Shown here: positions 7,574 to 31,298 of the stretch, piece by piece
Layout of the letters: each line of letters opens with the position of its first letter
How positions within the stretch are numbered: position 1 is the first letter of the stretch
Assembly (NCBI GenBank): GCA_947450365.1
Contig: CANFVE010000019.1
Location: forward strand, 1 to 52,729
Origin: Cytophagaceae bacterium
GTDB taxonomy: Bacteria > Bacteroidota > Bacteroidia > Cytophagales > Spirosomataceae
Direction of reading: 5' to 3'
Length of the DNA: 52,729 bases
Notes under the pieces: generated by a model
What the model saw: only the letters and a program-made list of their open reading frames with translations
What the model was told of the DNA's origin: nothing
Databases searched by the model: none
Made by a program: the position numbers and the translations under genes

Positions 7574-8404
7574 TTGCATACCAGCGAATTCATTTATCAG
7601 GTGATTAAAAACCAAGCCCTAGAAACTGAGCTTCGGTGGATTGATCAAAAATCCACATCGGATCTTAAAGGACTTTCCTTAGCCTTTGTGATGTGTCCTC
7701 GTTTTATCAGCAAGTCGGTTATATCTCACTCGGATTCTATTTTTCCGGGTTGGAGTTTTCAATCCTGGAGTCTCGACAGATTAGTGCGTGTCTATTTTTT
7801 ATCCTTGATGGCAGAAAAATCGGATGACGAACTGGCTTATATTCATCAAATGAATTTGTTGTTTGATACCGCGGAAATGAACGAGGCGGTTGCCCTTTAC
7901 AGCGCCATGCCCGTGTTAGCCTATGGCGAACAATGGGTATTGAGAGCTACGGATGCGGTTCGGTCTAACATCGGGCCAGTATTTGATGCCATCGCCTTTG
8001 GAAATCCATATCCGGCGATTCATTTTTCAGAATTGGCTTGGAATCAATTAGTCTTAAAATGTATTTTTAACGACAAACCCATTCACCTTATATTTGGATT
8101 AATGGAACGCAACAATGCGCCTTTGGTACAAACATTATCTGATTTTGCACATGAGCGCTGGGCAGCTGGCCGAAGGGTTCCCTCCCAAGTTTGGCGCCTT
8201 TCTTCCCCTTTCCTGACCGAAAGCCTGCTAACAGACATCGACTATTTATTAAGCCATGAAGATCCTAAAGACATCCTAGCAGGAACCTTAGTCTTACAAG
8301 AATCGGATTTTCCTGGCACCCAAGCATTAAAAGAAAAATATGGAATCAAAGCAAGCGCCCAAACCTCCTGGGCGCCGCTTGAAACCGCTGAACCCATTTA
8401 TTAA
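7574..8404 (+). CDS. eboA: EboA domain-containing protein
   Basis: This 276-residue protein is the first gene of the ebo cluster. It has no known catalytic motif and appears all-alpha, soluble and without a signal peptide, as in EboA proteins. Assignment rests on length, position and family-like segments such as a WDLxR-type region and CIFNDKPIHLIFGL near residue 157. The best start is TTG at 7574: the frame is closed by a stop at 7535 and contains no ATG before the conserved part. The start is preceded by AACCTATTTTACC, a 13-base leader also found before the SusC region. The function is unknown. In cyanobacteria the cluster is needed for normal localisation of a scytonemin precursor. Confidence 0.8.
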   Translation: MHTSEFIYQVIKNQALETELRWIDQKSTSDLKGLSLAFVMCPRFISKSVISHSDSIFPGWSFQSWSLDRLVRVYFLSLMAEKSDDELAYIHQMNLLFDTAEMNEAVALYSAMPVLAYGEQWVLRATDAVRSNIGPVFDAIAFGNPYPAIHFSELAWNQLVLKCIFNDKPIHLIFGLMERNNAPLVQTLSDFAHERWAAGRRVPSQVWRLSSPFLTESLLTDIDYLLSHEDPKDILAGTLVLQESDFPGTQALKEKYGIKASAQTSWAPLETAEPIY

Positions 8405-8415
8405 GCCTAAGCGAT

Positions 8416-9435
8416 ATGTGTCAGAACCCACACCAACAAAACCTAAATCCTTCGCATTTCGAAGGTTCTGAAGAAGAAAAAATCACCGCATCCGAGGTGG
8501 AACACGGTTTCTTACCCCACATTCAGGGAATGAAATTTTTTGACCCTCACATGCACATGTCCTCCCGTACGACGGATGACTACCAAGCCCTAGCCGATGC
8601 AGGCGTGGTAGCCTTGATTGAACCTGCGTTTTGGTTGGGCCAACCCCGCACAGGCTTGGCCTCTTTTCAGGATTATTTCGCCAGTTTGGTCGGTTGGGAA
8701 CGCTTCCGCAGTTCACAATTTGGCATCAAACATTATTGTACCATCGGATTAAATTCCCGGGAGGCGAATCATGAAGCATTGGCCGAACAAGTGATGGAAA
8801 TTTTACCTTTATTTTTACAAAAAGAGGGTGTCGTAGGAGTTGGCGAAATCGGTTTCGACGATCAAACCGCTGCCGAAGAAAAATATTATAGAGCCCAATT
8901 AGAGCTAGCCAAAGAGATGGGATTACCTGTCCAAGTTCACACGCCGCATCGCGATAAGAAAAAAGGAACCGAACGCAGCATGGCGATTGCATTAGAACAT
9001 GGCTTGGCACCGAACATGGTCATCATTGACCACAACAACGAAGAAACCTGCAAATCCGTCCTCGATCAAGGATTTTATGCCGCATTCACCATTTATCCAT
9101 TTACCAAAATGGGAAATGAGCGCATGGTGGAAATCGTCAAACAATATGGCCCTACTCGCATTATGGTGAATTCAGCCGCAGACTGGGGAATCTCAGATCC
9201 ATTGGCTCTTCCGAAAACGGCTGCCTTAATGAAAATCAAAGGTATCGATGAAGAAACGATTCGCCAGGTAACCTACCAAAACGCCTTAGATGCCTTCGCC
9301 CAAAGTGGTCAAATCCAAGAAAGTGATTTTATCCATGGCTTAGAAATAGACCAATCGCTGAAATTTAATGGCAATACCGTTTTACGTGGAGGTCAAGCAC
9401 CACGAATCAATAAAAATTCCTTGATCATCCGCTAA
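8416..9435 (+). CDS. eboB: EboB, TatD-like metal-dependent hydrolase
   Basis: An amidohydrolase-superfamily TIM barrel, 339 residues from the first ATG. The metal motif DPHMHM places H45 and H47. Later family motifs are GVGEIGFD (about 140), QVHTPHRD (about 174) and IIDHNNEE (about 203). The first 38 residues are charged and poorly conserved in character, so the internal ATG at 8530 (MKFFDPHMHM) is a serious alternative start, giving 301 residues. The substrate is unknown. It lies 11 bases after eboA and overlaps eboC by one base (TAATG), which indicates translational coupling. Confidence 0.88.
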   Translation: MCQNPHQQNLNPSHFEGSEEEKITASEVEHGFLPHIQGMKFFDPHMHMSSRTTDDYQALADAGVVALIEPAFWLGQPRTGLASFQDYFASLVGWERFRSSQFGIKHYCTIGLNSREANHEALAEQVMEILPLFLQKEGVVGVGEIGFDDQTAAEEKYYRAQLELAKEMGLPVQVHTPHRDKKKGTERSMAIALEHGLAPNMVIIDHNNEETCKSVLDQGFYAAFTIYPFTKMGNERMVEIVKQYGPTRIMVNSAADWGISDPLALPKTAALMKIKGIDEETIRQVTYQNALDAFAQSGQIQESDFIHGLEIDQSLKFNGNTVLRGGQAPRINKNSLIIR

Positions 9436-10319
9436 TGTCGAAAGTACGAGCCTTTCTTGAACTCATGCGGCCGGCCAATGTGGTCACTGCTTTTACCGAT
9501 GTGGCGGCAGGGATGGCGATTGTGGGTTATGTTTTTGGAAAGGAGTTAAACCAAGTAATCCCTCTCTTAACGCTTGGGTGCAGTTCCATGGCCTTGTATG
9601 CAGGCGGGGTGGTTTTTAACGATATTTTTGATCACGAATTAGATCGGGTGGAGCGGCCAGAAAGAGCCCTTCCCAGTGGTCGAATTAAACGCCAAGAAGC
9701 TATTTTCGGAGGAATTGCATTATTGGCTTTCGGGATTTTTCTTGCTTTTTGGCAAAGTCGATTGAGTGGTTATTTATCGATTCTAATTACGATTTTAGCC
9801 TTATTTTATGATGCAAAGGGGAAGCATATGCGGGTATTTGGGCCAATTAATATGGGTTTATGTCGGGCGGTCAACTTAGGTTTGGGCATGAGTATGTACG
9901 GCATAGGTTTCTTAGAACATGGCGCAATGATGCTCATTCCACTGATTTACATTGCTGCAATCACGTTGGTGTCACGCGGAGAAGTTCATGGTAGTCATTC
10001 AAGCCCCCTTTGGTTTGCCTCCATTTTATTTTTAATTGTCCATGCCTCACAGATTAGGGCAGCTAATGTATCGGGCCATTTAGCCATTGGATTACCCTTT
10101 ATTCTCGTACACGCCTATTTGGTATTAAGTAAATTAAGCATCGCCATTCGGGATCCTAAGGGCCCTAATATTGGAAAAACCGTTAAAATGGGGGTATTAA
10201 CCTTAATCCTAATGAACTCCGCTTGGGTAAGTCTTAGTGGACAATGGGAAATGGCCATTCTAGTTCTTTTTCTGCTTCCTATTTCGATTCAATTAGGTAA
10301 AAAGTTTGCCGTTACTTAA
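9435..10319 (+). CDS. eboC: EboC, UbiA-like prenyltransferase
   Basis: A 294-residue integral membrane protein with about eight hydrophobic segments and the first UbiA aspartate motif N62-D-I-F-D-H-E-L-D70. The second aspartate region (FYDAKGKHMRVFGP, about 117-130) keeps only part of the usual motif. UbiA enzymes attach prenyl chains to aromatic or other acceptors at the inner membrane, so EboC is the obvious candidate for making a lipid-linked intermediate. The acceptor is unknown. It is coupled to eboB by TAATG and followed after nine bases by eboD. Confidence 0.88.
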   Translation: MSKVRAFLELMRPANVVTAFTDVAAGMAIVGYVFGKELNQVIPLLTLGCSSMALYAGGVVFNDIFDHELDRVERPERALPSGRIKRQEAIFGGIALLAFGIFLAFWQSRLSGYLSILITILALFYDAKGKHMRVFGPINMGLCRAVNLGLGMSMYGIGFLEHGAMMLIPLIYIAAITLVSRGEVHGSHSSPLWFASILFLIVHASQIRAANVSGHLAIGLPFILVHAYLVLSKLSIAIRDPKGPNIGKTVKMGVLTLILMNSAWVSLSGQWEMAILVLFLLPISIQLGKKFAVT

Positions 10320-10324
10320 ATTTG
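10317..10324 (+). promoter_or_regulatory. Possible internal -7 promoter element before eboD (TAAATTTG)
   Basis: An exact TAnnTTTG match that begins in the eboC stop codon and ends four bases (ACGC) before the eboD ATG, as at rmuC and ygiQ. No good -33 element is seen at about 19 bases. It could be a chance match. Confidence 0.35.
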
Positions 10325-10328
10325 ACGC

Positions 10329-11474
10329 ATGCAACCGTTACAACAATATTTCCAAGTGCCTTTTAGGTACGAAGTTTTCTTCACTCAAAACCTATTTGAC
10401 CCCTCTAATGAGATGCTTGGGGACTTTATTCGGCATTTTGGAAATCCAGCATTTAAAAAAAGAATTTTATTTGTCATCGACAAAGGTGTTGCCGATGCAC
10501 ATCCTTCCTTGACCACCCATATCATCCAGTATTTTTCAGACGGAAAAATAGCTGATCTTTCTCCCGAAATTTTGGTTTTACCGGGGGGTGAAATTTGCAA
10601 AAACGACCCAAGATTTTACGAAGAAGTCGTTCGTGCGATTGACGAACATCGGATTGACCGTCATTCGTTTGTTGCCGCCATTGGAGGTGGCGCATTTTTA
10701 GATATGTCGGGCTATGCCGCCGCCATTTCCCACCGCGGCGTTAAATTCATCCGAATTCCTACAACAGTTTTATCCCAAAACGATTCAGGGGTAGGCGTCA
10801 AAAACGGCGTTAATTACCTCGGAAAAAAGAATTTCTTAGGCACCTTCGCTCCTGCCGTGGCCGTATTTAATGACATGCATTTTTTACGAACATTAGGGGA
10901 TCGTGATTGGCGATCAGGCATTGCCGAGGCCATTAAAGTGGCTCTAATTAAGGATTTGGCATTTTTTGAATGGCTTGAGCAACATGCGGATGATATGAAC
11001 GCACGCAATGAGCCCGTCATGATGGAGCAAATTTACCGCTGTGCTGAATTACACATGCAACATATTTCTTCGGGCGATCCTTTCGAATTAGGTTCGGCCC
11101 GGCCATTGGATTTCGGTCATTGGGCAGCACATAAATTGGAATACCTCAGTAACTTTGAAATTCGACATGGAGAAGCCGTGGCCATCGGAATCGCATTAGA
11201 CAGCGTATATTCCCATTTAAAAGGACAAATTTCAAAGGAAGATTTAGATCGAATTCTACAAGTAATTCGCCAGTTGGGATTTGATTTGTTCCATCCAGCC
11301 TTGGCCGAAAATGATAAAATTAATTTGCACAAAGGCTTACAAGAATTTCAAGAGCATTTAGGAGGTCATTTAACAATTACCTTGTTGGTAGCCCTCGGAA
11401 AAGGTCAAGAAGTGCATGAAATGGATTTTGACATGATCAAAAAATCGGTCGACTATTTAGCCGAATTAGCCTAA
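10329..11474 (+). CDS. eboD: EboD, 3-dehydroquinate synthase-like sugar phosphate cyclase
   Basis: A 381-residue member of the AroB/sugar phosphate cyclase superfamily. The NAD-binding segment GGGAFLDMSGY begins at about residue 118 and is followed by RIPTTVLSQNDSGVGVKNGVN. Metal ligands corresponding to those of AroB can be placed at E200 (GIAEAIK), H264 (DFGHWAAH) and H280 (RHGEAVA). Known superfamily members turn a seven-carbon sugar phosphate into a cyclic product (dehydroquinate, valiolone isomers, desmethyl-4-deoxygadusol). The ebo subgroup is distinct and its substrate is unknown. Context in the ebo cluster argues against it being the shikimate-pathway aroB. It is two bases from eboE. 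Confidence 0.9.
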   Translation: MQPLQQYFQVPFRYEVFFTQNLFDPSNEMLGDFIRHFGNPAFKKRILFVIDKGVADAHPSLTTHIIQYFSDGKIADLSPEILVLPGGEICKNDPRFYEEVVRAIDEHRIDRHSFVAAIGGGAFLDMSGYAAAISHRGVKFIRIPTTVLSQNDSGVGVKNGVNYLGKKNFLGTFAPAVAVFNDMHFLRTLGDRDWRSGIAEAIKVALIKDLAFFEWLEQHADDMNARNEPVMMEQIYRCAELHMQHISSGDPFELGSARPLDFGHWAAHKLEYLSNFEIRHGEAVAIGIALDSVYSHLKGQISKEDLDRILQVIRQLGFDLFHPALAENDKINLHKGLQEFQEHLGGHLTITLLVALGKGQEVHEMDFDMIKKSVDYLAELA

Positions 11475-11475
11475 T

Positions 11476-12672
11476 ATGAAAACAAACCTAGGCCATTTGA
11501 GCTATTGCAGCAATATCCACCCAGGAGAAATTTGGGCCCAACATTTTGCTGAATTACAAAAAAATGTCCCCATGGTTAAAGCCCAAGTTTCGCCCAATCA
11601 ATCCATGGGATTAGGTTTACGCATCGCAAACCAAGCGAGCATCGACCTACAAGATCCAAAGGAATTCAATTCCCTCAAAACCTGGTTGGCACAAGAAAAC
11701 CTATATGTTTTTACCTTAAACGGCTTCCCCTTCGGTGGATTTCATGACACCATTGTCAAAGACCAGGTACATGCGCCGGATTGGACCAGCCAAGAACGTT
11801 ACGACTACACCCTTCGTCTCGCCCATATTTTAGCCCATTTATTACCCGAAACTGAGCAGGAAGGTAGCATTTCCACCTCCCCTATTTCCTATAAATATTG
11901 GTGGGACAGCCCCGCGAAACTTGACGATGCGACAAAAAAAGGCACATTAGCGCTCTTAGCGTTGGTTTTAGCCTTGGCGGAGTTGGAAAAATCAACGGGC
12001 AAATGGATTCACATTGACATCGAACCCGAACCGGATGGAATTTTAGAAAACCACCGAGAATTTGTGGATTGGTATGAAAACGTATATGTACCCTTGGGAA
12101 CTGAGTTTTTGAAGGAACGAGGAATGGAAGGTCAAGAAGCTTTGTTGCGCCGACATGTCCAATTATGCTTCGATATTTGCCATTATGGCGTTAGTTTCGA
12201 CAAACCCGCAGCTTGCATTCAAGAATTAGTCGACAAACAGATACCCGTCGGAAAAATTCAAATCTCCTCAGCCCTTCGCGTCGATTTACGGGAAGATCCC
12301 ATCACTCACATCGAAGCACTTCGAAAATACCACGAACCCGTTTATTTGCACCAAGTGAAAGCCTTAGGCAAAGACGGAACATATATACAATACCGTGATT
12401 TGGATGAGGCCATTGCTGATTTCAAACCCGATCGGGATGATGAATGGCGGGTGCATTTTCATGTGCCTTTGTTTTTGGAAAATTATGGATTGTTGGGTTC
12501 GACCCAACAAGAAATTCGGGAAACCATCACCATCCAACTGGCGCAAGCATTTACCCGACATTTGGAAATCGAAACCTATACTTGGGGTGTTCTTCCGGCT
12601 GAATTTCAGGTGCCCATGGACCAGTCGATCAGTCGCGAAATACAATTCATCCAAGGACTTTTAAAAAATTAA
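11476..12672 (+). CDS. eboE: EboE, metabolite traffic protein (xylose isomerase-like TIM barrel)
   Basis: A 398-residue soluble protein of the EboE family, opening with the typical GHLSYCSNIHPGE. The fold is expected to be a xylose isomerase/AP endonuclease-like TIM barrel, with metal-site candidates in HIDIEPEPDG (about 177), CFDICHYGVSF (about 234) and VHFHVPLF (about 323). The reaction is unknown; isomerisation or epimerisation of a sugar-like compound would fit the fold. It overlaps the next gene by one base (TAATG). Confidence 0.87.
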   Translation: MKTNLGHLSYCSNIHPGEIWAQHFAELQKNVPMVKAQVSPNQSMGLGLRIANQASIDLQDPKEFNSLKTWLAQENLYVFTLNGFPFGGFHDTIVKDQVHAPDWTSQERYDYTLRLAHILAHLLPETEQEGSISTSPISYKYWWDSPAKLDDATKKGTLALLALVLALAELEKSTGKWIHIDIEPEPDGILENHREFVDWYENVYVPLGTEFLKERGMEGQEALLRRHVQLCFDICHYGVSFDKPAACIQELVDKQIPVGKIQISSALRVDLREDPITHIEALRKYHEPVYLHQVKALGKDGTYIQYRDLDEAIADFKPDRDDEWRVHFHVPLFLENYGLLGSTQQEIRETITIQLAQAFTRHLEIETYTWGVLPAEFQVPMDQSISREIQFIQGLLKN

Positions 12673-14039
12673 TGATGCAAAAAACAGTTGTCATCGATAT
12701 CGTAGGTCTCTCCGAAAGTGTCATTTCAGAATATACCCCCTTTTTAAAATCCTACATTGCCAAAAACTACATTAGCAAAATAAAACCCGTACTTCCGGCG
12801 GTTACAACTACCTCCCAAAGTGTCTATGTCACAGGAAAATATCCGAAGGACCATGGAATTGTAGGAAATGGATGGTATGATTCAACCGATGCTGAAGTTA
12901 AATTTTGGAAACAATCGAATCATTTAGTCGGCGCCGAAAAAGTATGGGATGAAGCCAAAAAAAGAAACCCAGCCTTCACATGTGCGAAGATGTTTTGGTG
13001 GTATAACATGTATTCTTCCGCGGATTATTCCGTCACGCCCCGCCCTCAATATCACCAAGATGGCGTCAAAGCGCCTGATTGTTATTCCTACCCAGCAGAA
13101 CTTAGAGACGAGTTGCAGGCCAAATTAGGCACCTTTCCCTTGTTTAGTTTTTGGGGCCCGAACGCCAATATCAAATCCTCGAAATGGATTGCAGATGCTT
13201 CCATGCATGTGGATGCGCTATATGACCCGACCTTGCAATTAATCTATCTTCCCCATCTAGATTATTGTTTGCAAAAATTCGGAGTTGATTTTTCAAAAAT
13301 CAAAAAAGAACTCGTGGAAATCGATGCGCTGATAGAAGAATTAGTTAGCTATTTCGAAGCAAAAGGAGCCAAAATTATTTTACTTTCCGAATACGGCATC
13401 AATAATGTAAATGAGCCTATTCATGTAAACAGGGTATTGCGGCGCCATGGTTATCTAGCTATTCGGGAAGAACGTGGATTGGAATTATTAGATGCTGGAG
13501 CCAGCGCGGCATTTGCTGTTTCGGATCATCAAATATCCCATATTTATGTAAAAAATAAGGCTCAAATTCCTGAAATAAAAGAACTCTTATCCGCGATTCC
13601 AGGCGTGGCCAAGGTGCTAGATGAAAAAGGAAAAAAGGCCAATCATATTGATCATCCGCGGGCAGGTGATTTAATTCTGATTGCGGATACGGATAAATGG
13701 TTTACGTATTATTATTGGTTAGACGATGCGAAGGCACCCGATTTCGCACGCTGTGTTGAAATCTTCAAAAAACCGGGCTACGATCCGGTGGAAATGTTCA
13801 TGGACCCGAGTAATCCGTTGATCAAACTAAAGGCCGGGTATAAGCTGGCCCGTAAACTCAGCGGTTTCAGGTATTTGATGAATGTGATACCTTTGGACGC
13901 GACATTAATTAAAGGATCCCACGGAAGTCCGGATTGTGCTAAGGAATTTTACCCGGTTTTCATCTCAAAAAACAAGGAAGTGGACGAGATTGCGCCCAAT
14001 GACGTGTACAATTTAATTTTGGATAGCATTTTCTCCTGA
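12672..14039 (+). CDS. eboF: EboF, alkaline phosphatase-superfamily phosphodiesterase
   Basis: A 455-residue protein of the type I phosphodiesterase/nucleotide pyrophosphatase family within the alkaline phosphatase superfamily. The metal-binding Asp9 (IDIVG) and the Thr nucleophile region VTTTSQS at residues 44-50 are present, then SEYGINN (about 239), IDHPRAGD (about 329) and KGSHGSP near 416. There is no signal peptide, so it seems cytoplasmic. A second ATG three bases downstream (12675) is equally possible as a start. It is the last gene of the ebo cluster. It might release a phosphorylated or nucleotide-linked product, but the substrate is unknown. Confidence 0.87.
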   Translation: MMQKTVVIDIVGLSESVISEYTPFLKSYIAKNYISKIKPVLPAVTTTSQSVYVTGKYPKDHGIVGNGWYDSTDAEVKFWKQSNHLVGAEKVWDEAKKRNPAFTCAKMFWWYNMYSSADYSVTPRPQYHQDGVKAPDCYSYPAELRDELQAKLGTFPLFSFWGPNANIKSSKWIADASMHVDALYDPTLQLIYLPHLDYCLQKFGVDFSKIKKELVEIDALIEELVSYFEAKGAKIILLSEYGINNVNEPIHVNRVLRRHGYLAIREERGLELLDAGASAAFAVSDHQISHIYVKNKAQIPEIKELLSAIPGVAKVLDEKGKKANHIDHPRAGDLILIADTDKWFTYYYWLDDAKAPDFARCVEIFKKPGYDPVEMFMDPSNPLIKLKAGYKLARKLSGFRYLMNVIPLDATLIKGSHGSPDCAKEFYPVFISKNKEVDEIAPNDVYNLILDSIFS

Positions 14040-14077
14040 TTTTTTTATAGATTTCCGACCTAAAAAAAATAATGCAC

Positions 14078-14440
14078 ATGAAAAAATTTATCGCAAGTTT
14101 AGCCGTAGTCGTAGCGATGTTAGGCTATTCCAATGAAGTATCCGCTCAGGACTTCAACCCACAAATGATGGTTCAACGTCAAATGGAACGTATGAGTACC
14201 GAATTAACATTAAGCAAGGACCAAGAGAAAAAAATGGAACCGCTTTTATTAGCTCGGATGGAAAAAATGATGGCTTTTCGGGAAGCAGGCATGGAGCGTG
14301 ACGCGATGCAAGCAGAAATGAAAAAAATCAATGACGCTCAATTAGAGCAGTTAAAGGCCATTTTAACGCCAGAACAATTAGAAAAATACAAAACAATGCA
14401 AAGCCAAATGCGTCAAGGCGGCGGCGGTCCAAGAAACTAA
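14078..14440 (+). CDS. Spy/CpxP-like small periplasmic protein
   Basis: A 120-residue protein with a signal peptide ending near VSAQ and a mature part that is almost entirely helical, rich in Met, Lys, Glu and Gln. The segment LTLSKDQEKKMEPLL followed by ILTPEQLEKYKTM resembles the paired helices of Spy/CpxP-type periplasmic chaperones. The tail is glycine-rich. The ATG at 14072 (adding Met-His) is an alternative start; 14078 gives the cleaner signal peptide. A TAGATTTC promoter-like box lies at 14049-14056. The gene is followed by a sugar isomerase-like gene after one base, so the two are probably co-translated. Function is inferred from form only. Confidence 0.75.
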   Translation: MKKFIASLAVVVAMLGYSNEVSAQDFNPQMMVQRQMERMSTELTLSKDQEKKMEPLLLARMEKMMAFREAGMERDAMQAEMKKINDAQLEQLKAILTPEQLEKYKTMQSQMRQGGGGPRN

Positions 14441-14441
14441 T

Positions 14442-15287
14442 ATGAACAAACGTACACTCCTCTTCATTTGCTTTTTGGCAAATTCCCTTTTCGCTCAGTC
14501 GGTTCCGAAAGTAAACGGTATTCCCTTGGGCATGGTATCTTATACCTACCGATTTAGCTTTCAAAAAGACATGCCTAAAACCTTGGATTCATTGAAATCC
14601 TTGCAAATTTTAGATATGGAATTTTCAAGTCTTTTCGGCAAAAAAGCGCAGGAAATTCGCCAATTATTAGATGAAAGAGGAATGTATTGTTCTTCTTTTG
14701 GAGTTAGTTATCAAGAAGCCCTTAGCAAACCCCAGGAAGTAGCGTCAAATGCAAAAGCCCTCGGAGCTAAATTTGTTCGGGTAGCCTGGATTCCACATGA
14801 TAAACCGATGGATCTTGCTTTAGCCGATAAAACCATCGCAGATTTCACAACCATCGGGAAAGTATTTAAAGATCAATATGGTTTAGAATTCTGCTACCAT
14901 AATCATGGATTTGAATTTACCCCTTACCAAGATGGTACTTATTTCGATTACATCGCAAAAAATACGGATCCCAACTATGTGAATTTCGAAATGGATATTT
15001 TATGGACCTTTTTCCCAGGCATGGATCCAGCCAAAATCTTATTGCAATATCCGAAACGATTTAAATTGATGCACGTCAAAGATTTACGTAAAGGGGTAGC
15101 AGGTAATTTTTCAGGGCAAACGTCCCCAGAAAATGATGTAGCCTTAGGAACGGGACAATTAAACCTGCCTGCCATCATCAAAGCCGCCAAAAAGGCCAAG
15201 ATACAACATTATTACATCGAGGATGAAAGTTCAAGCCATGCGGTACAGGTGCCTCAATCCATTCGATATTTGGAGCAATTTCGTTAA
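14442..15287 (+). CDS. Exported sugar phosphate isomerase/epimerase-like protein
   Basis: A 281-residue protein with a signal peptide (LLFICFLANSLFAQ) and a xylose isomerase-like TIM barrel. Metal-site candidates are visible in EFCYHNHGFEF (about residue 149), NFEMDILW (about 182), LMHVKDL (about 208) and YYIEDESS near 264. Such exported members are frequent in Bacteroidota sugar loci and their reactions are largely untested. It overlaps the ECF sigma gene by one base (TAATG), so enzyme and regulator are coupled. The mature protein should be periplasmic. Confidence 0.87.
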   Translation: MNKRTLLFICFLANSLFAQSVPKVNGIPLGMVSYTYRFSFQKDMPKTLDSLKSLQILDMEFSSLFGKKAQEIRQLLDERGMYCSSFGVSYQEALSKPQEVASNAKALGAKFVRVAWIPHDKPMDLALADKTIADFTTIGKVFKDQYGLEFCYHNHGFEFTPYQDGTYFDYIAKNTDPNYVNFEMDILWTFFPGMDPAKILLQYPKRFKLMHVKDLRKGVAGNFSGQTSPENDVALGTGQLNLPAIIKAAKKAKIQHYYIEDESSSHAVQVPQSIRYLEQFR

Positions 15288-17148: not shown

Positions 17149-20100
17149 ATGATGTCAAAAACTTTATCAAAACAACAGATTTTCAAAATTATGAGAGTCA
17201 CCATTACACAGCTCCTAATGACCGTATTGGTCGTGAGCATGGCCTATGCGCATCCGACGAAGGCCCAAGACATGCTACAAGAACGGGTTAATCTCAACCT
17301 GAAAAACGGAAGTATGAAGGGGGTCATTCAAAGTATCGAGAAGCAAGTGGATGTCACTTTTTCGTATCAAAAAGGCGTAATTGCCCAAGATGAGAAAATC
17401 AACCTTAGCTTATCCAATGAAACCTTGGAAAATGTGATGAAAAAGGTCTTTTCACCCAGAAACATCAAATATCAGTTTCAGAAAAACAATCAAATTATCC
17501 TCGAAAAAGGAAAATTAGGTGAAACGGAAAGCGCAAATGCAGAGCTTGCTCCACCAACGTCGTCAGAAATTTTAGTTGCCGATCGTTCGATTTCCGGAAA
17601 AGTTGTCGATGAAAAAGGCGAACCGATTCCAGGTGTTAACGTGCGTTTAAAAAATACAACGAAAGGTGTCGCAACAAATGACAAAGGAGCATTTACAATT
17701 TCCTTGCCTGAAAAGGGTAATTCAACCTTGGTATTTTCTTTTGTCGGATTTAATTCTCAAGAAATCATAGTGGGTAATCAAACAAACCTAACGGTTAAAA
17801 TGGTACCAAGCGAAGAGACATTAAATGAGGTTGTTGTCATAGGTTACGGATCAGTGAAGAAAAAGGATTTGACAGGTGCTGTGGGAACAATCAGCGCGAA
17901 AGAAATTACGCGTGGTAATCCAACTAACGCAACGCAAGCGCTTCAAGGACAAGTTCCAGGGGTGGTTGTGACGAAAATGAGTAATAAACCAGGCCAATTA
18001 TGGTCCATTGCCATTCGTGGAGAAAATACAATTACCGCTAACCCAAATGCGGATGGAGCCGTTAACCAAACGCTCGTGAGTAGTACGCCTCAAAACATGA
18101 ATACGGAGCCATTGGTCGTGATTGACGGGGTAATCGGCGGGAAATTACAAGATATTAATCCGGCGGATATTCAAACAATTGATATCTTAAAAGACGCTTC
18201 TTCTACTGCCATTTATGGATCTAGAGGAGCGAATGGAGTTGTGATTATTACTTCTAAAAGAGGTACCACGGGTAAACCAAGAGTAACCTTTGATTCTTAT
18301 GTAGGGGTTAAATCGCCGGACCATTTACCTAAAATGCAAAATGCGCAGGAATATTATAAATCTTCTTTAACGGATGCGGCCTTAAATGGAGCTGTCGTGA
18401 GTGCGTCGATGTTTAATGTAAATGAAATGAACATCATTAATAGTGGAAAAACGACGGATATTGTAGGATTATTAACCAAACCAGGAATTAATACAGGTGC
18501 GAATTTGGCAGTTTCTGGGGGTGTAGGTGGAACGAATTATCGTTTTTCTGCCGGGTATATCCAAGAAGATGGTATGATGCCTTTGACGAACTTTAAAAAA
18601 TATAGTTTAAATGCGGCCGTTGATTCGAAAATAGCTAGTTTCTTGAAAGTAGGTGCAACGATCTATTCGAATTACACGACGAACCCAACGGGTTCTTTTG
18701 AGGTACCTAGAACTGCTTACCGTGAGCGGCCTACGAGTACAATTTACTATGCAGATTTAGTTGATCCCGTTGTGGGTGGAGATGCATCCATCGGAAATAT
18801 CGATGGGTATGCAGTGAGAATGGGACGTAATAGTGCGGTGAACCCTTTATTAGAGGCCTCAAGCTTAAGCAATTATACGTGGACTCGAAATGTTTCTAGC
18901 CAAATGGGAAATGTATATGCCGAATTTGAATTATACAAAGGCCTAACATTTAAAACATCGATTTCTGCTTCCTACCAAATGGCGAAACAAGATGAATATC
19001 GCGGTAAATATTCGAAGGCAGTTAACGTATCTGGAAATACGAGAGCATCGGTAGAAAACGACTTTTTCCTTTCCTACACGTTTGACAACCAATTGACCTA
19101 TAACCTAGAAAAAGGAAAAAGTAAGATCAATGTAACGGCCTTGCAAAGTGCATTCAAAACAACTACGGAGATGAATGCGATTGCTGCCACAGGATTACCG
19201 TATGTTTCGTATTGGTACAATTTAGCCTCTGGAACAGCTGCTCCGGTGATTTATAGTGCATTTAGCCAACGGACCTTAGAGTCTTATATGGGTCGAATGA
19301 ACTATACCTATGACGGAAAATACATCGTTACGTTGACCGCGCGTTCAGACGGTGCTTCTCAATTGGCCGAAGGTCATAAATGGGCATTTTTCCCATCAGG
19401 AGCATTTGCTTGGCGATTAGGAGAAGAAAGTTTCATTAAAAACTTAAACTTTTTTAATGATTTAAAACTTCGTGCCAGTTTTGGCCAGGTGGGTAACTCC
19501 ATCGTGTCACCTTATGCGACGGCAGCCACGTTATTAAATACGAATTATGGTTATGGCCAGAACCCAGGGATTGGATTTGCGCCAAATAATTTACCGAACC
19601 AAGATTTGAGTTGGGAACGAAGTGAAGAATTAAACCTTGGTTTAAATGCTGCATTTTTGAAGAATCGGATTTCCCTGACCGCGGAGTGGTACAATCGTTC
19701 CACGAAGGATTTGATCATGAAACAAGCGATTCCAACTTCGACGGGTTTTAATACAATCATCGCGAACGTAGGACGTGTATCGAATAAAGGTGTTGAGATT
19801 CAGTTAAATACAACAAATATTTCGACAAAGAATTTCATTTGGACATCTGCTTTAACCTTTGCTAAAAACATCAATCGTTTAGAAGAATTACCTAATGGCG
19901 CGATGTATGGATGGAGCGGAAGTACAAACCCTGAAAACATATTAGCCGTTGGATATCCACTAAAGAGCTTTTTATATTACAAAGCCAATGGAATCTTTCA
20001 GTTAGGTGATGCAGAAGAGGCGAAAAAATATTCGTCATATCCAGGCGCGGTTCGCATCGTTGATCAAAATAATGATGGTAAAATTTCTTCAGGTGTGGTT

Positions 20101-20595
20101 GGTCAAGACGACCGCGTTATCCTTGGAAGTCAATTACCAAACTTCACGATGGGTCTTACCAATCGCGTAAGTTACAAAAACTTTGATTTAGCAGTCATGA
20201 TGTATTACCGCGATGGCACCATGTATAAAAATGGTTTCTTGAGTAATTATGTGTCTGATCCAGGAGGTGGAGGCCGCTTATCATTAAACTATTGGACAAA
20301 AGAAAATCCATCCAATGACATGTGGGGAATGGGCGTTCCTAGTACAACAGGACGGGATGCCATTTATTTCCAAGATGCAAGTTTCTTACGTATTAGCGAT
20401 ATTACCTTAGGATATACCTTGCCAAGAAAAGTTCTTGACAAAATGGGAATCGATAACATGCGGATGTATTTACAATCCATCAACCCAGCTTATTTCACCA
20501 AATTCAGCGGAGGTGACCCAGAATACAATGGGGCTGCTTATCAAGATGATTTCCCATCATCTACGCTCACATTTGGTTTTAATGTAGGCTTCTAA
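17149..20595 (+). CDS. SusC/RagA family TonB-dependent transporter with STN domain
   Basis: A 1148-residue outer-membrane glycan transporter. After the signal region (to about residue 39) come the STN signalling domain (about 47-120), a carboxypeptidase-regulatory-like beta domain (about 147-220, GKVVDEKGEPIPGVNV), the plug (about 228-370, with the SusC motif VVVIGYGSVKKKDLTGAVG) and a 22-strand barrel. The STN domain implies that it signals through the upstream FecR. The ATG used (17149) sits late. The same frame is open further upstream without a start, and an ATG AAA AA start at 17075 would join it if one A were added (see findings). Natural N-termini of this type are about 25 residues longer, so a frameshift is suspected. 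It pairs with the SusD gene downstream. Confidence 0.93.
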   Translation: MMSKTLSKQQIFKIMRVTITQLLMTVLVVSMAYAHPTKAQDMLQERVNLNLKNGSMKGVIQSIEKQVDVTFSYQKGVIAQDEKINLSLSNETLENVMKKVFSPRNIKYQFQKNNQIILEKGKLGETESANAELAPPTSSEILVADRSISGKVVDEKGEPIPGVNVRLKNTTKGVATNDKGAFTISLPEKGNSTLVFSFVGFNSQEIIVGNQTNLTVKMVPSEETLNEVVVIGYGSVKKKDLTGAVGTISAKEITRGNPTNATQALQGQVPGVVVTKMSNKPGQLWSIAIRGENTITANPNADGAVNQTLVSSTPQNMNTEPLVVIDGVIGGKLQDINPADIQTIDILKDASSTAIYGSRGANGVVIITSKRGTTGKPRVTFDSYVGVKSPDHLPKMQNAQEYYKSSLTDAALNGAVVSASMFNVNEMNIINSGKTTDIVGLLTKPGINTGANLAVSGGVGGTNYRFSAGYIQEDGMMPLTNFKKYSLNAAVDSKIASFLKVGATIYSNYTTNPTGSFEVPRTAYRERPTSTIYYADLVDPVVGGDASIGNIDGYAVRMGRNSAVNPLLEASSLSNYTWTRNVSSQMGNVYAEFELYKGLTFKTSISASYQMAKQDEYRGKYSKAVNVSGNTRASVENDFFLSYTFDNQLTYNLEKGKSKINVTALQSAFKTTTEMNAIAATGLPYVSYWYNLASGTAAPVIYSAFSQRTLESYMGRMNYTYDGKYIVTLTARSDGASQLAEGHKWAFFPSGAFAWRLGEESFIKNLNFFNDLKLRASFGQVGNSIVSPYATAATLLNTNYGYGQNPGIGFAPNNLPNQDLSWERSEELNLGLNAAFLKNRISLTAEWYNRSTKDLIMKQAIPTSTGFNTIIANVGRVSNKGVEIQLNTTNISTKNFIWTSALTFAKNINRLEELPNGAMYGWSGSTNPENILAVGYPLKSFLYYKANGIFQLGDAEEAKKYSSYPGAVRIVDQNNDGKISSGVVGQDDRVILGSQLPNFTMGLTNRVSYKNFDLAVMMYYRDGTMYKNGFLSNYVSDPGGGGRLSLNYWTKENPSNDMWGMGVPSTTGRDAIYFQDASFLRISDITLGYTLPRKVLDKMGIDNMRMYLQSINPAYFTKFSGGDPEYNGAAYQDDFPSSTLTFGFNVGF

Positions 20596-20625
20596 TCTTT
20601 TGGCAATCAATAAATGTTATCAATC

Positions 20626-22545
20626 ATGAATACATATAAAAACTTAAAACGTGCGACGCTATTCTGCTTAGTCATTCTGAGCACAGTTACTTTCAGTTGC
20701 AACAAAGAATTCTTGGACGAATACAATCCGGCCAACCGTACGACGGATAATTACTACAACACCGCTATCGGTTTCGAGGGCTTGGTGAATTCCTGTTACC
20801 CGCTCCTACGCGATATGACGCAACGTCGTAAATTAACGCACAATGGTACCGACCTTTTTGTGGAAAATGGTTATGCAGGTCCTTTTTACAACTTAGCCAA
20901 TCAAATTGGTTCAGAAAGAGATGTGTATGACAATCGATTCAATTCGACAAACGCAGAACTTCAAACGTATTGGGATTTGATTTACAAGGAAATTAACCGT
21001 TGTAACGCTGCCATCACCCGCAAAGACAAGGTTGTAGGCATGGACGCAGCGAAATTAGCCGACATGGTCGCACAAGCTAAATTCCTTCGGGCTCTTTCTT
21101 ATTTTTGGGCGGTTCAACAATGGGGCGATATTCCAATGCCTTTAAATGAATCTTTAAGCGGAAGCTTAGAAGCTAAAAAAGCAAGCTCTAAAGACGTTTA
21201 TACCCAAATTATTTCGGATTTGAATGACTGTATCGCTGTTTTACCAGCCACGCAAGCAGATCAAGGTCGGGCAACCAAAGGTGCCGCACAATTTTTATTG
21301 GCAAAAGTTTATTTAACTCGCGGATGGAATTTCAACAATGCCTTAGGTGGTTCAGATGCTGATTTCACCAAAGCTTTAGCTTTATGTGATGAATTGATTG
21401 CTTCTAATTTATATCCTTTGGAAGCCAATTGGAATACACTTTGGCCTACGCACAATAAAAATGTAAACAATGAAACAGCGACCTTAGCAAGTTCTGTGTT
21501 AGCCGCTAATGCAAGCAAGGAGGTTATCTTCTCGATTCAATACGCCAATCCATTGTATTACAAAGGAGATGGAAACTTCGATGCCGCAACGGGTATCCAA
21601 GGAAATAACATGCATAGCCAATTTGGTGGAGGACCTTCAGGGTTAGCTCAAGTAGCTACGGGACCTATTTACGGAAGACAAGTAAATTCACATATCCCTA
21701 CCTGGGCTGCTTATCGCTTATTTGACCCTAAAATGGATGTGCGCTACGAAGGAACTTATAACAGTGTTTCCTATGCGACCACCGCAGGTTCTGTAAGTTT
21801 GGCAAAAAACACCTATGCACAAAATGTCACAGTGAATTTTGCCAAAGGCGATACCACTGGCTATATCCGGGCATGGAATGATCCTGTCCTTAAGGATAGC
21901 GATAAAGGGGTGAACGTAAAAGGCGGAACGAAGAAATACAATGTAACGAGCCATAATGAAATGGAAGGCTATGCTCCGATCAATGCTACGACCGGGGTAA
22001 CTGACAATATGTTTTGGGGTAAACCTATGTTCTGGAAATTCTTCCAACCGGCAGTTCCATACGCGGATGGTTGGTCTACGTTAAACGACCCTCTCTTCCG
22101 TTCAGCTGATTTATATCTTATGGCAGCCGAGGCAATCGTCAAGGGGGCGACAGGATCCAAATTAGGTACAGCGGATGTTTATTACAATGTGGTGTTAGAT
22201 CGTGCCTTAGGTTCCAACAAAGGAAAATCACCTTCTCGTGCAGCAAAGGCAAACGATCCAAATGATGATCCTAAAAATGTGGTTTCTTATCGCGCAACAC
22301 CGGCTAACATCACAATCGATATGATTTTAGATGAATCAGGTCGTGAATTTTTGGGTGAATCTTATCGTTGGAATGATTTAAAAAGAACGAAAACCCTCAT
22401 TTCTCGTAACCTTCTTTATAACCCTTGGACGAAGTACGGAATTGGTGGAAGTTCTCAAATCAAGGATTTTCATTATTTGAGACCAATTCCTCAAGGCATG
22501 TTGGACGTAACAACTCCAAAAATTGATCAAAATCCGGGATATTAA
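20626..22545 (+). CDS. SusD/RagB family outer-membrane nutrient-binding lipoprotein
   Basis: A 639-residue surface lipoprotein that caps the SusC barrel and binds glycan. The start at 20626 (MNTYKNLK) gives a clean lipoprotein signal with the lipidated cysteine at about residue 25 (TVTFSC). The ATG at 20614 would add four residues. SusD signatures are present: FLDEYNPANRTTDNYYNT, AKFLRALSYFWAVQQWGDIP (about 141-160), LMAAEAIVKG and, near the C-terminus, LDESGREFLGESYRWNDLKRT. It lies 30 bases after SusC and the two are certainly a pair. The substrate cannot be read from SusD itself. Confidence 0.95.
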   Translation: MNTYKNLKRATLFCLVILSTVTFSCNKEFLDEYNPANRTTDNYYNTAIGFEGLVNSCYPLLRDMTQRRKLTHNGTDLFVENGYAGPFYNLANQIGSERDVYDNRFNSTNAELQTYWDLIYKEINRCNAAITRKDKVVGMDAAKLADMVAQAKFLRALSYFWAVQQWGDIPMPLNESLSGSLEAKKASSKDVYTQIISDLNDCIAVLPATQADQGRATKGAAQFLLAKVYLTRGWNFNNALGGSDADFTKALALCDELIASNLYPLEANWNTLWPTHNKNVNNETATLASSVLAANASKEVIFSIQYANPLYYKGDGNFDAATGIQGNNMHSQFGGGPSGLAQVATGPIYGRQVNSHIPTWAAYRLFDPKMDVRYEGTYNSVSYATTAGSVSLAKNTYAQNVTVNFAKGDTTGYIRAWNDPVLKDSDKGVNVKGGTKKYNVTSHNEMEGYAPINATTGVTDNMFWGKPMFWKFFQPAVPYADGWSTLNDPLFRSADLYLMAAEAIVKGATGSKLGTADVYYNVVLDRALGSNKGKSPSRAAKANDPNDDPKNVVSYRATPANITIDMILDESGREFLGESYRWNDLKRTKTLISRNLLYNPWTKYGIGGSSQIKDFHYLRPIPQGMLDVTTPKIDQNPGY

Positions 22546-22558
22546 TCTCTGAATTCCC

Positions 22559-22594
22559 AAACGGGGGTGAACGTCCGTTCACCCCCGTTTTTTA
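22559..22594 (+). terminator. Strong intrinsic terminator after susCD
   Basis: A near-perfect hairpin of about 14-15 bp (AAACGGGGGTGAAC with GTTCACCCCCGTTT) ends in a T-run. It starts 14 bases after the susD stop. It lies before the next gene's TTG start and makes an upstream GTG start for that gene (22567) implausible. Confidence 0.92.
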
Positions 22595-22605
22595 CAAAAC
22601 CTATT

Positions 22606-23730
22606 TTGAAAAAAATCATTTTCCTACTCCTGCTATCCCCTAGCCTTTGGGGACAATCGTGGATCGATTCACTCGATTTGCATGGAAGGGAAATATATAT
22701 GCCTGCCAATAAATATAAATGGGATTGGGGACAAGGCACCTTTTTGAATTCCCTCATCCACCTATATCAACAAAAACCATCCGCCGAAAAAGAACGCTAC
22801 CTCACCTACATTCGCACCGCGATGGATGTAAGTTATGATGTTGCCAACGGCAAACACCCCAACGCACTCGCCTCCGGTCATGCCATGGCTTTTTTAGCCC
22901 GAGTTAGCGGAGAGAAAAAATACCGTCTCAAAGCAGACGAATTATACCAAGATTACCTGAAAACGCCAAGAACCTCCAATGGTGGTGTTTCCCATCGTGT
23001 AGAAACCGAGGAACTTTGGGACGATACGGTCTACATGCTCAGCATGTATATGCTCGAAATGTATCGCCTAACGAAAGAAGAAAAATACATCGACGAACTC
23101 GCCTTTCAAGTCAAAGCACATAGTGAAAAATTAGCCTATTGGCGTACCGGTCTCTGGGTACATGGTTGGGATTCGGATAGTTTAGATTATGACGATAAAT
23201 GCAGTATTATCGGTTGGGCCGATCCAGTCACCCGAAAAAGCAAAGAATACTGGGGTCGTGCCAACGGCTGGATTGCCATGGCCATGGTCGACATCATCGA
23301 AACCCTACCTCCTTCCCATCCACAACGCCAACTCTTCATCAACGAACTTAATAACCTTGTCCGACTCCTTCCTGTCCTTCAACATAAAGAAACCGGACAT
23401 TGGTTCCAGTTATTAGATGTGACGGATAACCCCGCAAACTTCCTCGAAAGCTCATGCACCGCTATGTTCGGATATGCCATGAGCAAAGGAATACGCTTAG
23501 GCATCTTACCTCGGGTACCGTTCCAAGCATCTGCCGACCTCGCCTACCAAGGCATCAAAAAATACAGTTTAGCAAAAGTCGACGGTGGAGCCTATTTAAC
23601 CCCAAAAAACGTAAGCGGGGGAACCTGCATCGGAAGTAGATCTTATTATTTTAATCGGCCACAGGTGACTGGAACTGGTTTTGGAATTGCCTCATTCATA
23701 CTGTTTGGGCTTGAATATGAAAAGAAATGA
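22606..23730 (+). CDS. GH88/GH105 family unsaturated uronyl hydrolase
   Basis: A 374-residue (alpha/alpha)6-barrel enzyme that removes 4,5-unsaturated uronic acids from oligosaccharides made by polysaccharide lyases. A signal peptide (KKIIFLLLLSPSLWGQ) indicates export. Family features are KWDWGQGTFLNSL (about 38-50), the acidic pair D139-D140 in ELWDDTVYML, one of which should be the catalytic residue, and YWGRANGWIAMAM. The start is TTG at 22606, immediately after the leader AAAACCTATT. The GTG at 22567 lies inside the terminator stem. It overlaps the next gene by ATGA. GH105 rather than GH88 is favoured by the WGRANGW motif. Confidence 0.88.
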   Translation: MKKIIFLLLLSPSLWGQSWIDSLDLHGREIYMPANKYKWDWGQGTFLNSLIHLYQQKPSAEKERYLTYIRTAMDVSYDVANGKHPNALASGHAMAFLARVSGEKKYRLKADELYQDYLKTPRTSNGGVSHRVETEELWDDTVYMLSMYMLEMYRLTKEEKYIDELAFQVKAHSEKLAYWRTGLWVHGWDSDSLDYDDKCSIIGWADPVTRKSKEYWGRANGWIAMAMVDIIETLPPSHPQRQLFINELNNLVRLLPVLQHKETGHWFQLLDVTDNPANFLESSCTAMFGYAMSKGIRLGILPRVPFQASADLAYQGIKKYSLAKVDGGAYLTPKNVSGGTCIGSRSYYFNRPQVTGTGFGIASFILFGLEYEKK

Positions 23731-25418
23731 ATCGACGTAATTTTACCAAAATAGGAACAACATTCATTGGTCTAAGTCCATTTAGCGGTTTTGCCTGGGC
23801 TGAAAAACCTCAAAAACCGAACTGGCTCATTAAGCTCATTCACTTGAATGACAGCTACATCAAGCCCAGCCTACAAAACCAAATTCAAGATAAAAACCAC
23901 CCATTTTATGGGGCTATTCTTAATGGAGAAGAAATTCCAGATGCCGTTGCCACGAGCGGCGTACTCGCCATGTGGGCCATCGGAATCGCTAGTCCGGAAT
24001 CCGACTATTACCAATCAACCAATTTACTGAATCAGTTCGAGAGTGGAGCTCAGTTTTTATTGAAAGCCCAACATAGGGATGGGACGATCGATTTATTGAG
24101 CTCCAACTTTCATTCACCCCCTGACACCGCCTTCAGCGTCGAAAAAATAGCCCGGGCGTATACCCTCTTAGCTACGGTTCCGAAGGCTGAAAAGGCCCTC
24201 ATTCCAACCAAAACGTATTTATTGCGCGCAGGCGAAGCCTTGGTCATCGGTGGAATTCACACGCCAAACCACCGCTGGGTCGTTACCGCCGCACTCCTTC
24301 AAATCCATGCCCTTTTCCCAGATAAACGCTATGTGGCGCGGGCAGAGGAATGGTTGCTGGAGCACATCGACATCGACCCCGACGGACAATATACCGAAAA
24401 AAGTGCCGGGGGTTATACTGCCATCGTCAACCGTGTCCTCATCGACGTTGCCCTTGGCCTCAATAAACCCGAAATCCTAGATGCCGTTCGGAAAAATCTG
24501 AACATGACCATGTATTACACGCATCCTAACGGAGAAGTGGTCACCGAAGCATCCAACCGGCAAGACAAAGGAACCATCAATTTCCTACAAGGATATTATT
24601 ATTCCTATCGGAAATTAGCCATTCGTGATGCAAATCCACAATTCGCCGCCATGTGCCGGCTCATTGAAGAAACGGCCAAAGACCGAATTTCGGATAATTT
24701 ATCCGCCTACCTCTTAGAACAAGATCTTTGGAAGGAATTGCCTACTTCGGGTAAACTACCCACGGAATATGTCAAAGCATTTCCCTATTCTGGCGTTGTT
24801 CGGATTCGAAAAGGGAATTGGGATGCAACTCTATTGTCAAATAACCCGGGATTTTTAACCTTTCAAAAAGGGAAAGCAGTCCTTCAAGGCATGCGGATCG
24901 CGGCCTCGTTTTTTGGGAAAGGCCAGTTTCAAAGTACCTCCATCACACAGCAAGGTAATTCATGGGTGTTGACAAATGCCCTCGAAGGACCTTATTACCA
25001 ACCCTACCCGAAAGATAAAATTGACCCGAATGGAAACTTGAGCAACATGCCCAGAACCCAACGGACCAAAAGCGAAATCCAATATTTGCGCTATACGACA
25101 AGCGTCACGCCCCAAGAAAATGGCATTCAAGTGGATTTTGTCATCGAAGGAACCGACGGCGTTCCTGTCAGCCTCGAATTAATTTTTAGACCCGGAGGAA
25201 TTCTATCAGGCATCATCCCGATGCCCGGACGAGATAAATCCTTTTTGTTCGATTCCAAAATAGCCCAATACACGATGGGTGAAGATAGTATCCACATAAG
25301 TCCTGGTTTGCAACAACATAAAGGCATTGTTCTTCGGGGCGCATTACTGCCAATGGATGCCCCCACCGTCTATTTGACCGGGTTTACCCCATTCAAACAT
25401 TCGATTAAAATTTATTAA
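23727..25418 (+). CDS. Tat-exported protein of unknown family, lyase-like architecture
   Basis: I do not firmly recognise this 563-residue protein. It starts with a Tat-like signal (NRRNFTKIG then a hydrophobic stretch ending SGFAWA). Residues about 40-340 are helical and look like an (alpha/alpha) toroid, with conserved-looking HSPPDTAFSVEKIARAY (about 130) and ASNRQDKGTINFLQGYYYSYRKLA (about 273, given here as two parts, ASNRQDKGTINF and LQGYYYSYRKLA). Residues about 350-563 are rich in beta strands. This order, toroid then beta sandwich, is that of polysaccharide lyases of the heparinase II/III and PL8-like folds. Its coupling (ATGA overlap) to an unsaturated uronyl hydrolase makes a lyase role attractive, but this is inference. 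Confidence 0.75.
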   Translation: MNRRNFTKIGTTFIGLSPFSGFAWAEKPQKPNWLIKLIHLNDSYIKPSLQNQIQDKNHPFYGAILNGEEIPDAVATSGVLAMWAIGIASPESDYYQSTNLLNQFESGAQFLLKAQHRDGTIDLLSSNFHSPPDTAFSVEKIARAYTLLATVPKAEKALIPTKTYLLRAGEALVIGGIHTPNHRWVVTAALLQIHALFPDKRYVARAEEWLLEHIDIDPDGQYTEKSAGGYTAIVNRVLIDVALGLNKPEILDAVRKNLNMTMYYTHPNGEVVTEASNRQDKGTINFLQGYYYSYRKLAIRDANPQFAAMCRLIEETAKDRISDNLSAYLLEQDLWKELPTSGKLPTEYVKAFPYSGVVRIRKGNWDATLLSNNPGFLTFQKGKAVLQGMRIAASFFGKGQFQSTSITQQGNSWVLTNALEGPYYQPYPKDKIDPNGNLSNMPRTQRTKSEIQYLRYTTSVTPQENGIQVDFVIEGTDGVPVSLELIFRPGGILSGIIPMPGRDKSFLFDSKIAQYTMGEDSIHISPGLQQHKGIVLRGALLPMDAPTVYLTGFTPFKHSIKIY

Positions 25419-25444
25419 TTTAGCCTACATTTAAACCTATTGAC

Positions 25445-26758: not shown

Positions 26759-26761
26759 TCC

Positions 26762-29038: not shown

Positions 29039-29041
29039 ACG

Positions 29042-31296: not shown

Positions 31297-31298
31297 GC

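Follow-up and report, generated by a model that had tools for sequence, protein, structure and literature searches.

A complete ebo cluster in a member of the Spirosomataceae, and an inositol phosphate synthase in place of EboD in actinobacterial ebo loci

The subject of this analysis is an ebo gene cluster on a stretch of 52,729 nucleotides, the whole of which is called the window here (contig CANFVE010000019.1 of assembly GCA_947450365.1), from a Cytophagaceae bacterium of the family Spirosomataceae. The source genome comprises 2.66 Mb and is 93.6% complete. In the list of open reading frames (ORFs), six + strand ORFs between 7574 and 14039 make up a complete cluster in the canonical order eboA-B-C-D-E-F, all in the same direction:

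7574..8404, + strand: eboA, 276 aa with a TTG start, predicted to be an all-helical, repeat-like protein
8416..9435, + strand: eboB, a TatD-like metallohydrolase with intact metal-ligand positions (PF01026, 68.5 bits)
9435..10319, + strand: eboC, an intramembrane prenyltransferase of the UbiA type (NF035940, 340.7 bits)
10329..11474, + strand: eboD, a sugar phosphate cyclase other than 3-dehydroquinate synthase (PRK06203, 557.8 bits)
11476..12672, + strand: eboE, a xylose-isomerase/ketose-3-epimerase-like TIM barrel in which the putative metal ligands are kept
12672..14039, + strand: eboF, a protein of the alkaline-phosphatase fold with an altered metal site (PF01663, 202.2 bits)

One-base overlaps are found at B/C and E/F, and the intergenic gaps measure 11, 9 and 1 bases. 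The canonical order given in an earlier note, which was made from this DNA alone, thus holds, but the range of 2–11 bases stated there for the gaps does not.

The gene identities of that note were borne out by family models, with a reservation for the label of EboF that is taken up below. The matches to NCBIfam models lie above the cut-offs for EboC (NF035940, 340.7 bits, cut-off 250), EboE (NF035939, 478.6 bits, cut-off 250), EboD (PRK06203, 557.8 bits, cut-off 333) and the EboA domain model (NF035938, 160.4 bits, cut-off 50), whereas the 'EboA family' model NF035937 scored 186.3 against a cut-off of 320. In Pfam, EboB is recognised as TatD_DNase (68.5 bits, cut-off 27), EboC as UbiA (57.8 bits, cut-off 34.2) and EboF as Phosphodiest (202.2 bits, cut-off 23); EboA and EboE had no match in the Pfam scan of the window proteins. 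Relatives of EboA are listed with PF28008, and the named ones include Aquirufa, Emticicia and Flectobacillus, so that the host is an environmental bacterium akin to these. Compared with the ebo clusters of Bacteroidota, cyanobacteria and eustigmatophyte plastids (PMC5133447), the window has all six genes of the same families in the order ABCDEF and shows no difference of kind, EboC being near-core in the host family. Nostoc punctiforme has the same A, B, C, E and F, each of them required in that organism for delivery of the scytonemin monomer to the periplasm, but its eboD lies nearby in opposite direction, whereas in the window eboD stands inside the operon and scytonemin genes are not recognised (PMC6282210). 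The window cluster is an ordinary member of the known ebo kind.

In Actinomycetota the set has a different composition. Most of the actinobacterial ebo loci examined here are without eboD and carry a gene for myo-inositol phosphate synthase (MIPS) instead. The ebo clusters on Streptomyces plasmids are annotated with an 'inositol-3-phosphate synthase', have no EboD and follow the order MIPS-C-TIMa-A-B-E-F, TIMa being an extra TIM-barrel gene. In the 80 loci that came out best when ranked by how closely their EboE resembles one from Streptomyces, MIPS is present in 62 and EboD in none; 14 of the 18 loci without MIPS lie on contigs ending before its expected position. An even sample of 296 genomes of Actinomycetota, which were not selected by cyclase and in which only EboE, MIPS and EboD were sought, gave EboE in 13 genomes, one being the centre. 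Each of the other 12 has a PF01658 gene at a distance of 3,628–5,401 bases from an EboE, with both genes on one contig and strand, and the EboD model stayed below its cut-off in all 12, with weaker matches elsewhere. The 48 plasmid records with EboE, in which many Streptomyces records are near-copies, hold EboD in 15 cases, MIPS in 29, both in none and neither in four. In the pooled set of 151 loci the respective numbers are 62, 65, 0 and 24; a Fisher test on this table (p 1e-22) is given no weight, since the loci are related. MIPS and EboE share a strand in 64 out of 65 loci, and MIPS lies 0–118 bases before EboC in 42 out of 60, measured from the edges of the matches.

The actinobacterial clusters are of the SCO3242 type. 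In most of 82 loci they have homologues of EboA, EboB, EboE and EboF and a UbiA-type prenyltransferase, as does the window, whereas MIPS and the extra TIM barrel take the place of EboD and the Streptomyces prenyltransferase that was tested matches the SCO3242 model. In S. coelicolor, the transferase SCO3242 and the myo-inositol phosphate synthase SCO3243 are listed with the cluster of the calcium-dependent antibiotic (PMC3610822). No description of the MIPS form of ebo was found in open-licence literature, and the word 'inositol' occurs zero times in PMC5133447, PMC6282210, PMC6092422 and PMC9235831.

The MIPS of the clusters looks like a working enzyme, judged by its domains and residues. Both copies that were scanned (L069, L071) contain PF07994 and PF01658, the nearest solved chain is 1u1i, a myo-inositol-1-phosphate synthase (228 bits), and four lysines, which we take to be the catalytic ones of archaeal Ino1, are kept in 63 out of 63 sequences. 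Its match to the mycothiol Ino1 model is remote (37.2 bits, cut-off 638). Of 25 genomes tested, 23 have at least two MIPS genes, and the other copy in these genomes would be of the mycothiol type. A search of the source genome of the window for MIPS gave none, so that EboD would be the candidate for the cyclitol step there.

EboD itself shares fold family and catalytic frame with 3-dehydroquinate synthase (DHQS) but differs from it in having GVKN for GGKT, His for K250, Asp for N268 and F-(R/Q)-E for the DKK motif, positions which we number as we take them to be in the A. nidulans enzyme. His at K250 and Asp at N268 are found in 61 out of 61 EboD sequences; within the DKK motif, F takes the first position in 60 of the 61 and E the third in 59. 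The AroB of the source genome retains N and DKK. The earlier note had held that EboD is not an ordinary AroB, and this was confirmed: its score with the aroB model TIGR01357 is 215.9 bits, below the cut-off of 305, the DHQS residues have no counterpart, and a separate true aroB (335.1 bits with the same model) is located elsewhere in the genome. The outcome that would have refuted the note, EboD placed inside ordinary AroB, did not occur, and a role of EboD as second shikimate enzyme is rejected on the same three results. The database name 3-dehydroquinate synthase is likely to be wrong for this protein.

EboD and MIPS belong to different families, have the same type of product and exclude each other within an otherwise largely conserved gene set, which is most simply explained by a need of the set for a cyclitol. 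The presence of MIPS in place of EboD is independent evidence that the pathway begins with a cyclitol. This lends new support to the cyclitol part of what the earlier note had proposed, a cyclitol-like, possibly prenylated product that helps to carry metabolites across the inner membrane, but not to its novelty: a prenyl-cyclitol product had been proposed from EboD and EboC by Yurchenko 2016 (PMC5133447), and Klicki 2018 (PMC6282210) found that the scytonemin monomer stays in the cytoplasm of Nostoc when any of five ebo genes is deleted, and suggested that a lipid acts as carrier. New are the MIPS exchange, the altered site of EboF and the near-core status of ebo in the host family.

Which cyclitol is made may differ between the two forms. 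It is possible, although we would not favour it, that EboD clusters turn sedoheptulose 7-phosphate into a valiolone-like C7 ring, as in the published proposal, and MIPS clusters make the C6 ring of inositol, with only the downstream use in common. EboD and the C7 cyclase ValA both have Asp at the position of N268, while the second His is kept in EboD and is Pro in ValA. The extra TIM barrel of the MIPS loci and the fit of the tested actinobacterial prenyltransferase to another model, SCO3242, would be in agreement with two different rings, as would the published tree, in which EboD is placed in one region with enzymes for sedoheptulose 7-phosphate (PMC5133447). However, the residues tested in EboB, EboE and EboF are kept in both forms, which is easier to understand if these proteins meet an identical or closely similar substrate.

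The other proteins were compared with solved structures and by their active sites. The six ligand positions of EboB, placed according to what we take to be the TatD ligand set, are invariant in 148 out of 148 copies; the nearest solved chain is AF_1765 (3guw, 2e-23), with a TatD-related DNase behind it at 5.5e-6. EboC has its nearest solved relative in digeranylgeranylglyceryl phosphate (DGGGP) synthase (6m31, 1.4e-12), and the Asp-rich motif of UbiA-superfamily prenyltransferases is present in 131 out of 133 rows. AF_1765, 6m31 and the chain 1u1i mentioned above are presumably all archaeal. A comparison of EboE with PDB sequences gave nothing significant; the fold search was informative and indicated a TIM barrel like those of xylose isomerase and ketose 3-epimerase. 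The model of EboA is helical and repeat-like, and the fold did not lead to a function, with a best Foldseek E of 0.31 and only HEAT/ARM-like rows of middling Z.

EboF matches the family of type I phosphodiesterases and nucleotide pyrophosphatases/phosphodiesterases (NPP; PF01663). At what we take to be the NPP metal ligands of XaNPP (D54, D210, H214, D257, H258 and H363), D54 is replaced by V in 137 out of 139 copies, and H214 by Q, D257 by E and H258 by Y in all 139; D210, H363 and T90 are retained. These positions were set by a HMMER alignment to 2gsn, presumably the Xanthomonas protein, with stretches at E 7.7e-6 and 0.004 and that of H363 below significance. As four out of six metal-ligand positions differ in nearly all copies, the name 'phosphodiesterase', which the earlier note had also used, is doubtful and as a database name likely wrong. 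EboF still has the alkaline-phosphatase fold and its nucleophilic Thr but lacks the usual two-metal site, and is unlikely to carry out ordinary phosphodiester hydrolysis.

The kinship of EboC with an ether-lipid prenyltransferase, taken together with the need for a cyclitol, makes a prenyl-cyclitol lipid likely, and we consider it rather probable that ebo makes one. For its substrates, the order of the steps and the role in the host we infer the following. EboD would close a sugar phosphate into the cyclitol ring, to which EboC would attach a prenyl chain. EboE, resembling ketose epimerases, and the TatD-like EboB would tailor the head group or the product; EboF would do something other than ordinary phosphodiester hydrolysis, and EboA is probably a helical scaffold or lid. 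By analogy with Nostoc, metabolites, aromatic or other, would leave the cytoplasm with the aid of the resulting lipid.

A number of observations weigh against this pathway or against the exchange on which it is built. The chief one is biochemical: farnesylation of 8-hydroxyquinoline-2-carboxylic acid has been shown in vitro, in membranes, for three EboC homologues, and of 14 aromatic acceptors assayed quinolines were best, phenols and catechols gave no product, and no result for a cyclitol is given (PMC9235831). This is the strongest result against a cyclitol as acceptor. Further points concern the loci. Four full-length actinobacterial loci (L099, L101, L102, L104) have the upstream region and no cyclase was found beside them; the scan covered one upstream ORF each in L099, L102 and L104 and two in L101, not every one present, and returned a lectin, a lectin/BNR protein, a GH31 protein and twice nothing. 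In the even sample, a second EboE of one genome (G693) lies 190 kb away from MIPS. Of the 65 MIPS loci 64 have TIMa, which is absent from all EboD loci. EboD is missing from the stretch examined in six out of 62 Bacteroidota loci, one of which (L162) has all five other genes. Cyclases of the EboD type usually release an unphosphorylated ring and MIPS a phosphorylated one, therefore the head groups need not match. Moreover, the EboC subfamily does not strictly follow the cyclase, as the EboC proteins of Bacteroidota and Proteobacteria are far apart and both occur with EboD. In the Gemmatirosa locus, that of the Gemmatimonadota plasmid L071 described below, EboA was not found, and EboB groups with Deinococcus (100/100), thus the rest of the ebo set is not constant either. 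Finally, the exchange is clustered on the tree, which means few independent events.

The Gemmatimonadota plasmid (L071) counts in favour of the exchange: it also has MIPS and TIMa and no EboD, with MIPS on the strand opposite EboE. In the trees, its EboF groups with EboD-type Proteobacteria (100/98) and its EboE falls outside the actinobacterial clade (100/100), but its EboC is placed with actinobacterial prenyltransferases, at 92/77 only and on a long branch. From these placements it is likely that the exchange between EboD and MIPS occurred repeatedly or travelled as a module.

Two further explanations dispense with a cyclitol lipid. The Ebo proteins could be a membrane transport complex, with EboA as scaffold, EboC as anchor and the enzyme folds as relics; the single phenotype of the five Nostoc deletions (PMC6282210), the helical repeat-like model of EboA and the change of most metal ligands in EboF would fit such a complex. 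Yet EboB, EboE, EboD and MIPS show no or almost no variation at the active-site positions that were tested, and the swap of a whole enzyme for one of another family suits catalysis better than structure, so that we regard a purely structural role as improbable. Still more improbable is a farnesylated aromatic compound of the quinoline type, with EboD giving a shikimate-like ring: the farnesylation by the three EboC homologues speaks for it, but MIPS in place of EboD would not supply an aromatic ring, the DHQS residues are lost in all 61 EboD sequences, no quinoline-forming family was recognised by Pfam in the 37 window ORFs scanned, and the published acceptor panel was aromatic (PMC9235831).

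The prenylated cyclitol lipid can also be phrased more boldly: ebo would be a widespread pathway dedicated to an inositol-type prenyl lipid that helps to export aromatic dimer alkaloids, EboD and an archaeal-type MIPS would be interchangeable entry enzymes, EboF would be an alkaline-phosphatase fold turned to another use with a new active site, and cargo genes, those for scytonemin in cyanobacteria and a split VioB-like pair in several phyla, would plug in next to the cluster. As a whole we regard this extended version as tentative and rather doubtful.

The distribution of the cluster is uneven. EboC was found in 135 out of 150 genomes of the host family, 134 of them above the cut-off, and in 31 out of 395 genomes of the host phylum, there at a stricter E-value. 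Thus, ebo is close to a core trait of the host family and patchy in the phylum. All six genes are present in 37 of 40 stretches of at most 20 kb around EboC from the host family; L046 and L054 have A–C only, and L049 is a 4.2-kb contig with A–D. In two further loci (L172 and L175, from genomes G473 and G485) a match to the EboC model over the cut-off stands with no other ebo gene within 20 kb.

The flanking genes are conserved within the genus in part. Within 14072–15287 of the window, 3' of eboF and on the same strand, lie a DUF4890/LTXXQ-like protein with Pfam scores below the cut-off and, next to it, an IolE-like TIM barrel, the start of which resembles a signal peptide. The former is kept in all 14 loci of the genus, the TIM gene in ten and a glycosyltransferase in nine, while flanking genes (LTXXQ-like, peptidase S9, radical SAM) recur in just one of the remaining 26 loci of the family, L037. 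No partner transporter or cargo gene conserved beside ebo was found across the 40 family loci. With EboC in 135 out of 150 genomes and flanks kept only in the genus and one further locus, ebo appears as a near-core, self-contained unit. Further downstream, positions 17149–32780 hold a polysaccharide-use locus with TonB receptor, SusD, GH88, Gfo/Idh/MocA, GH92 and sulfatase. The earlier note had seen no scytonemin or other pigment genes adjoining the cluster, and indeed no pigment, quinoline-forming, scytonemin or other cargo family was recognised by Pfam among 37 of the 40 window ORFs of at least 120 aa, the three left out being short and opposite a longer ORF.

Outside the host family several neighbours were noted. 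A two-gene pair, encoding a protein of about 600 aa and a PF12902 ferritin-like protein, adjoins ebo in Bacteroidota, Burkholderiaceae and a cyanobacterium (L070:2055-5115, L066:3879-6961, L179:9852-13133, and L158). Some members of each half weakly match parts of VioB (E 2e-7 to 5e-4, far below the 1250-bit cut-off), and of eight plasmid records with the first half, five show it no more than a few kb away from ebo genes and three are from Azospirillum. The pair is a possible cargo pathway of aryl-pyruvate dimers; no PF12902 was found in the source genome of the window. A gene of the 'ScyD/ScyE family' (NHL-repeat) lies directly 5' of the MIPS-type cluster in two actinobacterial loci (L069:3174-4373, L074:4228-5409). 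In Streptomyces sp. NBC_01244 (L177:7968-9146), eboE stands inside what appears to be a cluster for an aromatic polyketide, and the 17 kb examined there showed no further ebo gene. Among 58 full-length actinobacterial loci, a Gfo/Idh/MocA oxidoreductase with a further xylose-isomerase-like gene occurs in 14 and a sugar-type ABC permease in 13, within about 10 kb. These families were counted against references, as an all-against-all BLAST was distorted by antisense ORFs in the GC-rich loci; the neighbours, for instance in L077 and L079, are perhaps a sugar or cyclitol uptake operon.

The ebo cluster spans several phyla and algal plastids, and the exchange for MIPS makes its product directly testable. 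If MIPS, the product of which is known, can replace EboD, the head group would be an inositol-type cyclitol and the lipid could be traced by its mass and with labelled inositol. Such a lipid, if it exists, would assist quite generally in moving small molecules across the inner membrane.

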